Source: Elusimicrobiota bacterium (GTDB lineage Bacteria > Elusimicrobiota > Elusimicrobia > UBA1565). From it: a stretch of 41,961 nucleotides of DNA. Below the pieces are notes generated by a model, which had not been told where the DNA came from, ran no database searches, and saw only the letters and a list, made by a program, of their open reading frames with translations. Below, in pieces: positions 3,343 to 31,355 of this stretch. The translations under genes were made by a program, and so were the position numbers. Every line of letters starts with the position of its first letter. Position 1 is the first letter of the stretch. The stretch is taken from the NCBI GenBank assembly GCA_016212885.1, contig JACRDO010000060.1, positions 1 to 41,961 of the forward strand, written 5' to 3'.

Positions 3343-3378
3343 TTGACAACGCTGCCGAGGCGATGTATACTATACATT
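3343..3378 (+). promoter_or_regulatory. Consensus promoter and operator of the vapBC-like pair
   Basis: TTGACA at 3343-3348 and TATACT at 3366-3371 have the ideal 17-base spacing. The start codon follows only seven bases after the -10 box, at 3379, so transcription would begin at or next to the ATG and the mRNA would be leaderless. A perfect palindrome ATGTATA-C-TATACAT at 3363-3377 covers the -10 box and transcription start. This is where a ribbon-helix-helix antitoxin would be expected to bind for autorepression. Confidence 0.75.
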
Positions 3379-3654
3379 ATGGCGATGAAACGCTCCCAAA
3401 TCTACCTGCCTGTCGAGCAGTGGCGGCTGTTGAGCATGTTGAGCCACCAGGCTCATGAGTCCATCTCGGAGCTGATTCGCCGGGCGCTCGAACGAGTCTA
3501 TCAGCGCGGGAAACAGCCCGGTTTCGGCCAAGCCCTGGGCCGCATAGCGGGCTTGTGGAAGGACCGCAGGGACTTGCCTCCGACGTCCGCCTATGTGCGG
3601 GAGCTTCGCCGGGATTCCCGGCTCTCCGGGCGCCGAGCCCGCCCGAATGCCTGA
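3379..3654 (+). CDS. Ribbon-helix-helix antitoxin (VapB/CopG type)
   Basis: This protein has 91 residues, starting MAMKRSQIYLPVEQW. The N-terminal strand (KRSQIYLP) followed by two helices (EQWRLLSMLSHQAH and SISELIRRALERVY) is the ribbon-helix-helix DNA-binding pattern. The rest is a basic tail that would wrap the toxin. The frame is open further upstream to 3343, but that would put the start inside the -35 box, so the ATG at 3379 is preferred. The stop overlaps the toxin start by eight bases. Role: neutralise the downstream PIN toxin and repress its own promoter through the palindrome at 3363-3377. Confidence 0.82.
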   Translation: MAMKRSQIYLPVEQWRLLSMLSHQAHESISELIRRALERVYQRGKQPGFGQALGRIAGLWKDRRDLPPTSAYVRELRRDSRLSGRRARPNA

Positions 3655-29661: not shown

Positions 29662-29863
29662 GCGAGCCCGGATAGCGGCAGCAGCGGGCTATCTAGGAGG
29701 CGCGTCTATGACCCCGCCCTTTGGGAGCCATTCCGGACGCCGTCTCGGCAGGCCGCAGCTTCAATCCGTATTTCTTCTTGATTTGCTCCACATCCTCGTG
29801 AATCTTTTACAGCCGATAAGAATCCCAAAGCTTGCCATCGGATGATGGATTCCTATGAACGAA

Positions 29864-29885
29864 AGGCCCCGGTTCCCCGGGGCCT
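29864..29885. terminator. Strong GC hairpin, possible terminator
   Basis: AGGCCCCGG and CCGGGGCCT form a perfect 9-bp stem around a TTCC loop. Read on the minus strand it is followed by TTTCGTT, a weak U tract; on the plus strand there is none. It is the clearest structure in the gene-free stretch 29662-29969. I find no supported gene there. Confidence 0.45.
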
Positions 29886-29969
29886 CGGTCGTCTATCAGC
29901 TGACCTTCGATATCGGAAGTATATCAGAAAATCGAGGTGTTCGGCCGGCTGCTATACCACCTCTCTGCT

Positions 29970-30011
29970 CCGTGTAGCATTGATATCATATATTATGTCA
30001 TTGCTACACGG
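29970..30011. promoter_or_regulatory. Distal palindrome upstream of the Xre regulator
   Basis: Perfect 10-bp arms CCGTGTAGCA (29970-29979) and TGCTACACGG (30002-30011) enclose a 22-base AT-rich centre with GATATCATATATTATG. It starts with the same CCGTG-type ends as the second palindrome next to the regulator gene, about 110 bases downstream, so both may bind the same protein. Confidence 0.5.
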
Positions 30012-30081
30012 CGTAGAAGATGACTGCCATCCCCTGCCCCGCACCGGCACCCTTCGCCTGCTCCGCCGCAACCGCGCTCCC

Positions 30082-30123
30082 CCGTGCATTATTAATATAA
30101 TATGTTATGTTATAATTGCACGG
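30082..30123 (+). promoter_or_regulatory. Palindromic promoter at the Xre start codon
   Basis: Arms CCGTGCA (30082-30088) and TGCACGG (30117-30123) enclose a 28-base AT-only-like centre. The centre ends with TGTTATAAT, an extended -10 element whose TATAAT (30111-30116) is a perfect consensus. The ATG follows seven bases later at 30124, as in the vapBC promoter, so the transcript should be leaderless. The whole -10 region lies inside the palindrome, which would allow the Xre product to shut off its own gene. Confidence 0.6.
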
Positions 30124-30474
30124 ATGCCGAAACAGACCCGCGTCCCCCTCCCTCACCGCCGCGCCCTCGCCCGCCTCCTGACCCCGGCGTGCAGGCCCCA
30201 TCCAGCCCTGCGCCTCGAGCCCGACCAATGGGTGCGCACGGTGCGCGCCGCCCTCCACATGTCGCAAGCGCAGCTGGCCAAGCGCGCGGAAATCTCGCAG
30301 GCGCACGTCGCGCTCATTGAACGGGGGCGCGTGGATCCGCGGGTGGGCACTCTGCGCCGGATATTCGCCGCGCTCTTCTGCGATTTCATCGTTTTGCCGG
30401 TCCCTCTGCGGCGCCCCGGGGATATCGTCGCCGAACGGACCATGGACATCCCGACCCCCCGAATCTGGGACTAA
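30124..30474 (+). CDS. Xre-family helix-turn-helix regulator
   Basis: A 116-residue protein starting MPKQTRVPLPHRRALARL. The HTH is QWVRTVRAALHMSQAQLAKRAEISQAHVALIERGRVDPRVG (given in outline), with MSQAQLAKRAEISQAHVALI as the helix-turn-helix core, followed by LRRIFAALFCDFIVLPVPLRR. The layout resembles the small regulators called mobile mystery protein A, but the match is loose. The frame is open to 29842, yet those codons would cross both palindromes, and the ATG at 30124 fits the -10 box. It stops 23 bases before the PhnD-like gene and may control it. Confidence 0.78.
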   Translation: MPKQTRVPLPHRRALARLLTPACRPHPALRLEPDQWVRTVRAALHMSQAQLAKRAEISQAHVALIERGRVDPRVGTLRRIFAALFCDFIVLPVPLRRPGDIVAERTMDIPTPRIWD

Positions 30475-30482
30475 TCTCGATT

Positions 30483-30491
30483 TGGTATCAT
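30483..30491 (+). promoter_or_regulatory. Possible extended -10 before the PhnD-like gene
   Basis: TGGTATCAT is an extended -10 element ending six bases before the ATG at 30498. If used, this transcript too would be leaderless. No good -35 box is visible, and read-through from the Xre gene is also possible. Confidence 0.3.
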
Positions 30492-30497
30492 ACCCCG

Positions 30498-31355
30498 ATG
30501 CGGCATGCGGCCCTCTGCCTCGCCCTCTTCGCCTTGTTTTCAGCTCAGGCCGCGGAGCCCCGGCCCCGCTTAGACCTCCGCTTCGGCCGAATCCCCTTCA
30601 TCAACGCCCGCGACATGATCTCCAGCCACGAGAACCTCATGCGCTACCTCACAAAAAAGCTCGGCCTGGAGGTCCGGCTCGTCCTGACCCCGGACTACGA
30701 CGCGCTGACCCGCTACATGAAGGAAGGCAAGATCGACGTGGGCTGGTTCGGCACCCTCAACTACCCCAAGGCCCGCGAGGAAACCGGCTGCACGGCGATC
30801 CTGAAGACCCGGCGCTTCGGCGCCGCCTCCTACCGCGGCATGATCATCACCCGCGCGGACAGCGGCATCAAGACCTTGAAGGGCCTCAAGGGCCATTCCT
30901 TCGCCTTCACCGAGCCGAGCTCCGCTTCCGGGTATTTCTACCCCCGCATGACGCTCCTATCGGCGGGCATCGACCCGGACAAGGACCTCAAAGCCCAGTG
31001 CATCAAGGGCCACGACAAGGTCGTCTACAACGTCTTCCTCGGGAAATACGACGCCGGCGCGGTCTACGACGACGCGCGGGAGAAGCTCTCCTCCCCCCGG
31101 CAGCGCAAGAGCGTCGTGGTCCTGGCCAGGACCAAGGAGATCGTGAGCGAACCCATCGCTGTCCGCAAGGGCCTGGATGGGCGCCTGGTGCGCAAGCTCA
31201 AGGCCGCGCTCCTCGCCTTGGACGTGAAGCGGCCGCAGGACAAGGACATCATCGGCCCGACCGGCAACGTCCAGCGCTTCGTCGAGGCCGCTGACGCGGA
31301 CTATGACTCTGTCCGCGAGGACCTCCGGCTCTACGAGAGCCTCTTGAAGCGCTGA
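30498..31355 (+). CDS. PhnD-like periplasmic phosphate/phosphonate-type binding protein
   Basis: A 285-residue exported protein with a short signal peptide (MRHAALCLALFALFSAQAAE). The body matches the PhnD/TauT periplasmic binding fold: LRFGRIPFINARD, then LTRYMKEGKIDVGWFGTLNYPKAR, then the domain-crossing TFAFTEPSSASGYFYP-like segment with the S-S-A-S anion-binding run. It ends GAVYDDAREK. There is no ABC permease or ATPase nearby. Instead the stop shares one base with the start of a membrane diguanylate cyclase, so it probably serves as the ligand sensor of that cyclase and not in transport. The ligand is unknown. Confidence 0.85.
   Translation: MRHAALCLALFALFSAQAAEPRPRLDLRFGRIPFINARDMISSHENLMRYLTKKLGLEVRLVLTPDYDALTRYMKEGKIDVGWFGTLNYPKAREETGCTAILKTRRFGAASYRGMIITRADSGIKTLKGLKGHSFAFTEPSSASGYFYPRMTLLSAGIDPDKDLKAQCIKGHDKVVYNVFLGKYDAGAVYDDAREKLSSPRQRKSVVVLARTKEIVSEPIAVRKGLDGRLVRKLKAALLALDVKRPQDKDIIGPTGNVQRFVEAADADYDSVREDLRLYESLLKR

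Follow-up and report, generated by a model that had tools for sequence, protein, structure and literature searches.

A conserved 42-bp palindrome before xre genes in one order of Elusimicrobiota: a probable autoregulatory operator of exceptional length

Gene control in the phylum Elusimicrobiota is, to our knowledge, little studied. The stretch of Elusimicrobiota DNA analysed here (41,961 nucleotides, henceforth the window) contains a gene for a small Xre protein preceded by two palindromes, and the question is what these palindromes do. The initial annotation described them as related and as carrying CCGTG-type ends, and both points were borne out. The distal (P1) and the proximal (P2) palindrome (Table 1) were detected mechanically as inverted repeats of 42 bp each, are identical in 31 of 42 letters, and both fit exactly the outline CCGTG-N32-CACGG, which occurs twice in the window against 0.04 times expected, a count reached in none of 100 shuffles. 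P2 adjoins the start codon at 30124, with 0 bases between. This is the start on which the annotation relied, and it agrees with the aligned N-termini of the relatives of the protein.

Table 1. Features of the window that are discussed in the text
Feature	Coordinates	Strand	Remarks
P1, distal 42-bp palindrome	29970..30011	.	18/21 pairs
P2, proximal 42-bp palindrome	30082..30123	.	proposed operator, overlaps promoter
Extended -10, TGTTATAAT	30108..30116	+	inside P2, 7 bases before ATG
xre gene	30124..30474	+	116 aa, HTH_3 at residues 38-88; start fits relatives
Near-leaderless promoter candidate	30486..30497	+	TATCAT-N6-ATG / TGGTATCAT-N6-ATG (30483-30500); by eye, before PhnD-like gene
PhnD-like substrate-binding protein gene	30498..31355	+	23 bp downstream of xre
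TTGACA-N17-TATACT-N7-ATG	3343-3381		before vapB-like gene at 3379 (gene named by eye)

We propose that P2 is the operator of the adjoining xre gene and P1 a second copy of it, and that Xre probably binds the 42-bp dyad over the -10 element and thereby represses its own leaderless promoter. Xre would occupy the P2 dyad, cover the -10 and shut off transcription of its own gene; when Xre is scarce, RNA polymerase would start at or close to the first base of the ATG, yielding a leaderless mRNA. P2 overlaps the predicted promoter-like element of the gene as well as adjoining its ATG, and the PhnD-like gene downstream may be read through together with xre. Occlusion of a promoter is a poorer fit for one subgroup of relatives, which have a GGAACTTTT...CGTATG motif beside the start and the palindrome further upstream.

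The proposal draws on the conservation of the site before relatives of the gene, which were found at E <= 1e-15 in 29 of the 235 genomes of the class. We examined 41 loci, three of which had too little upstream DNA, and used the remaining 38; these comprise 23 of clade A, with short proteins like that of the window, and 15 of an outgroup, a division made on protein length and C-terminus and not on a tree. A site was considered significant when a 42-bp window held at least 14 of 21 pairs with a shuffle p <= 0.02. Such a palindrome stands upstream of 19 of the 23 clade-A xre genes, and this link to the xre family supports, as the best reading of the sequences, the suggestion that the palindromes are Xre operators. 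Among the outgroup relatives it was found in 2 of 15, neither of them with CC...GG ends. The last letter of the palindrome is position -1 of the start codon in the window gene and in three relatives (L021, L022 and L030). No upstream site was found for four of the 23 clade-A genes (L025, L026, L031 and L057), and three of these have a weaker dyad 3' of the gene (L031, E 0.001; L026, E 0.012; L057, E 0.044). The arms are retained in L028, where the site measures 70 bp instead of 42.

Eighteen sites from 17 genes could be aligned without gaps, and 88.6% of their pairs are kept, a figure to be read knowing that the sites were chosen for symmetry; shifting the pairing by 1-3 bases lowers it to 31-45%. 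Changes in both arms number 107 against a shuffle mean of 36.8, and were equalled in none of 500 shuffles. The operator letters vary between genomes, but the two arms change jointly. Left out of the alignment were L050 and L053 (upstream DNA absent), G212:C94 (not fetched), the four clade-A genes lacking a clear site upstream, and L028 and L029, whose dyads are weaker or differently framed. Each arm contains two conserved blocks, CC[CG]TGT at positions 1-6 and T[GA]A[TC] at positions 12-15, about 10 bp apart and with variable letters between them; position 4 is T without exception across the 37 compared sites (74 arms). No clear inner dyad or direct repeat was found within the half-site. Because the site is four turns long and has two conserved blocks about one turn apart in each 21-bp arm, two Xre dimers are likely to sit side by side on it, perhaps as a tetramer occupying the 42-bp site, by analogy with controller (C) proteins. 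Having 37 equally long sites for comparison, of which 19 are xre-linked, would render both the recognition code of Xre and the function of such a four-turn dyad directly testable.

The HTH_3 domain of the Xre protein scores 41.9 bits, above the Pfam gathering cutoff of 23, and the fold of the protein was predicted with a mean pLDDT of 80.6. The fold matches C.AhdI (Z 11.7, rmsd 1.7, 60 aligned), C.Esp1396I taken from the tetramer-35-bp complex 3clc (Z 10.8, rmsd 1.6, 60 aligned) and 434 Cro, 2cro (Z 10.9, rmsd 1.4, 59 aligned), and the clade profile scores 34.8 bits against 1zug. DdrO, SinR, 434 Cro and many further HTH_3 proteins tied with the C-protein matches, so that the fold gives no choice among them.

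The HTH fold of Xre is common to 434 Cro and the phage repressors; their operators are of about 14 bp, unlike the 42-bp site. The C proteins C.AhdI, C.Esp1396I and C.Csp231I are, like Xre, small HTH_3 proteins, and they have a long operator at their own promoter, as proposed here for Xre. The tetramer of C.Esp1396I has been solved on its natural 35-bp operator (3clc); for C.Csp231I, PMC4321490 describes a pair of dimer sites ahead of the protein's own gene and a structure on a 21-bp recognition duplex. C proteins sit by restriction-modification genes, whereas none was recognised beside xre, whose two neighbours were searched for domains and are CvpA-like and PhnD-like. Also unlike the operators of C proteins, the 42-bp site forms a single uninterrupted dyad whose length hardly varies. 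P2, which spans the -10, carries two conserved blocks per arm that may correspond to two dimer sites, and no clear inner dyad was seen within an arm. No C-protein model appears among the 14 NCBIfam matches of Xre. On our best reading, the locus encodes an Xre that regulates itself through an operator resembling those of C proteins; the literature that we searched, judged by its listings, gave no description of a 42-bp Xre operator.

The best NCBIfam match of Xre is mobile mystery protein A (TIGR02612; residues 27-107), at 43.9 bits, which is far below the cutoff of 122.6, and we rejected this assignment. Mobile mystery protein B (Fic) is absent after xre, where the next gene is PhnD-like, and four plasmid mob_myst_A loci gave no match to the site model.

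The annotation had also pointed to a perfect extended -10 exactly seven bases before the ATG, and this holds. No sigma-70 two-hexamer promoter, -35 or terminator was found by a consensus scan of 29700-30560; extended -10 promoters usually lack a -35. The further claim of a spacing shared with the vapBC promoter proved right for the N7 distance, although the hexamer there, TATACT, has one mismatch. A more general design, TATAAT-N7-ATG, did not emerge: the distances from -10 to ATG are spread broadly in the window genome, and the extended -10 at N7 is present in three of 13 palindrome-bearing xre genes examined, namely that of the window and the two relatives closest to it, in which the hexamers TAATCT and TATAAA both follow a TG at a distance of one base. 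In that genome, TATAAT-N(3-30)-ATG occurs at 270 places against 80 for the reversed control pattern, with spacings, among the 100 matches listed, crowding at 6-14 and no peak at 7 (N7 is represented by six), and TGNTATAAT-N7-ATG occurs three times. It is thus the palindrome, and not the spacing of the -10, that constitutes the shared design. The broad pile-up of short distances suggests that leaderless or near-leaderless starts are common in this genome, and that promoters with a very short distance between -10 and ATG are seemingly common there as well; the vapB-like gene at 3379 would be a further near-leaderless case. The available part of PMC10783764 holds nothing on leaderless genes in Elusimicrobiota.

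Further copies of the palindrome, a check named in the initial annotation, were sought by the ends of the site and with a covariance model of the 42-bp site, built from the same 18 aligned sites. By its ends, the loose CCGTG-N32-CACGG pattern occurs at 18 places in the whole window genome (3.83 Mb, 91.6% complete), and only P1 and P2 are AT-rich dyads, as judged by eye from the listing. The model found at least three sites there, since the search can miss some, each before an xre gene: P1, P2 and C5:24885-24926, the last before a paralogue of xre on contig 5 (L017) that is 55% identical. Order-wide, sites at E <= 0.01 were found in at least 19 of 56 genomes; at E <= 0.001 they were found in at least 18 of the 235 genomes of the class, all 18 being among the 56 of the order, and in none of the 179 outside it. 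With laxer filters, 40 genomes from outside the order gave nothing at E <= 0.1, an empty result that, with no positive to accompany it, shows little. Likewise, 16 outgroup xre loci, one with hardly any upstream DNA, gave no model match at E <= 0.01, and by our own grouping every relative that the class search found outside the order is of the outgroup type.

The reach of these searches is illustrated by one genome of the order (G189), in which the standard searches found no site and laxer filters found five places at E <= 1. One of its six xre copies (L119), a more distant relative that did not contribute to the model, carries, one base before the ATG, a 42-bp site that scores 40 bits when searched alone, and this site was missed every time; all the genome-search counts are therefore lower bounds. 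The other five copies have no model match; by eye, their dyads are shorter or in another frame, or no clear dyad is visible, and one of them (L123) has a similar dyad at its gene start.

Sites also occur away from xre. The 43 distinct places found across the order, counted by hand from the listing, comprise 18 linked to xre, one beside a decayed xre (L095), six of a separate type in G191, and 18 solo sites, the G191-type sites being excluded from the solo counts. Half of the solo sites (9 of 18) lie in genomes that also have a clade-A xre site, and in eight of these nine the site of the genome itself is the best match; for the ninth, a site from the same genus outranks it, and label shuffles matched the overall result in 0 of 5000 trials. 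The other nine are distributed over six genomes without a detected clade-A xre. With laxer filters, four solo sites of G189 (E <= 0.01) match the upstream DNA of L123 at 31-35 of 42 letters and a fifth (E 0.16) at 25 of 42, and a solo site of G203 (E 0.03) agrees in 19 of 20 letters per outer arm with its own 70-bp xre-linked dyad (L028). No xre-like frame at E <= 0.01 was found in five laxer-filter loci of G189 and G203, and among 25 loci with sites away from xre a remnant of the gene was seen in one (L095).

With gene positions picked crudely by frame composition and not by annotation, the solo sites appear mostly intergenic and not regularly at gene starts; one (L080) lies a few bases ahead of what may be the start codon for a secreted-looking protein. 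No coherent set of controlled genes is evident around them. In two pairs of solo sites, the flank on one side is alike as well, at 95% over 65 bases (L069 and L087, G226) and at 90% over 41 bases (L185 and L187, G189), which indicates that longer stretches were copied along with the palindromes. In some relatives the sites are dispersed between genes in the manner of REP and MITE palindromes; unlike these, they were found in few copies per genome, and their letters follow those of the xre operator in the same genome wherever a comparison could be made.

The G191-type element is a separate dispersed palindrome, of 60 bp and nearly perfect, with GGTGTCAGA...TCTGACACC ends and six copies (L072, L088, L089, L090, L092 and L093).

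The solo sites bear on a second reading, to which we give a minor share of belief: palindrome and xre would form a small portable unit, the solo palindromes being copies or remnants of gene loss, and the palindrome may serve movement and not regulation. The decayed xre L095, in G213, and L017 of the window genome come from genomes of different families and yet are alike at 93% over 87 bases and at 89% over 95 bases, a likeness that begins near the palindrome and ends near the stop codon; the flanks compared gave no match. Conserved neighbours were not found between genera at 25 loci, one generic match aside. Together with the solo palindromes and the shared flanks of the two pairs, these sequence comparisons support horizontal transfer of the gene with its operator, at least once, and some copying of solo sites. 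Against a portable unit, the case of L095 is the single clear transfer, and the model search found three sites in the window genome, a lower bound; inspection by eye showed no target duplications beside the solo sites, no recombinase was recognised alongside, and the placement of the site next to the ATG, as many relatives have it, fits regulation better. The two readings can both be true. Combined, they would give a broader picture to which we assign a low probability, that of an order of Elusimicrobiota whose lone self-regulating Xre genes move between genomes together with their palindrome, in units of about 0.4 kb. Each lineage would have operator letters of its own, kept symmetric at close to 42 bp, and the genomes a small number of solo sites to match; regulator and operator would be a pair that diversifies fast and resembles a selfish cassette. 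A search of viral contigs with the clade alignment gave seven matches, mostly to the HTH part (best E 2e-8), and a search of genome contigs with the single Xre protein gave none.

Returning to regulation by Xre at P2, the annotation had envisaged that two sites may allow looping, with Xre acting on P1 and P2 jointly. The presence of two sites alike in most of their letters would suit this, but they lie 112 bp apart from start to start, which at 10.5 bp per turn is 10.67 turns, short and out of phase, and L029 is the single other relative in which inspection by eye revealed a second site upstream. We consequently do not favour looping and regard it as improbable.

Still less probable, in our view, is control at the level of translation, in which the palindrome would fold into an RNA hairpin just ahead of the start codon in a transcript arriving from upstream. 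Inverted repeats do adjoin or nearly adjoin the ATG in several relatives. However, mismatches of the G-T kind are not in excess of A-C mismatches, either in the 19 xre-linked sites (14 against 22) or over all 37 sites (29 against 35), which indicates that the symmetry is kept in duplex DNA and not in an RNA hairpin; moreover, the dyads lack a loop, the -10 sits inside P2, and sites are also found away from gene starts. Finally, AT-rich islands in a GC-rich genome favour short palindromes, but an origin by chance is refuted by the conserved length and the paired changes, and has next to no probability given the expectation for the window, the 19 clade-A genes, the shuffles of the alignment and the model searches of the window genome and of the class.

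Two other promoter arrangements were seen before xre relatives. In one genus (G209 and G195; for example, at L029), a GGAACTT-N15-CGTATG-like motif lies upstream of xre and occurs at 10 and 13 places, respectively, against 1 and 0 for its reversed control; the motif itself occurs twice in the window genome and not at all in G190, G212 and G214. It resembles what we take to be the promoter set of an ECF sigma factor, with an xre gene among its members. In the outgroup (L018, L035, L036, L037, L045-L047, L125 and L126), xre is often preceded, as judged by eye, by TTGACA and a -10 that overlap short palindromes such as AATATGTTTAAACATATT, a layout that corresponds to a plainer Xre operator design.
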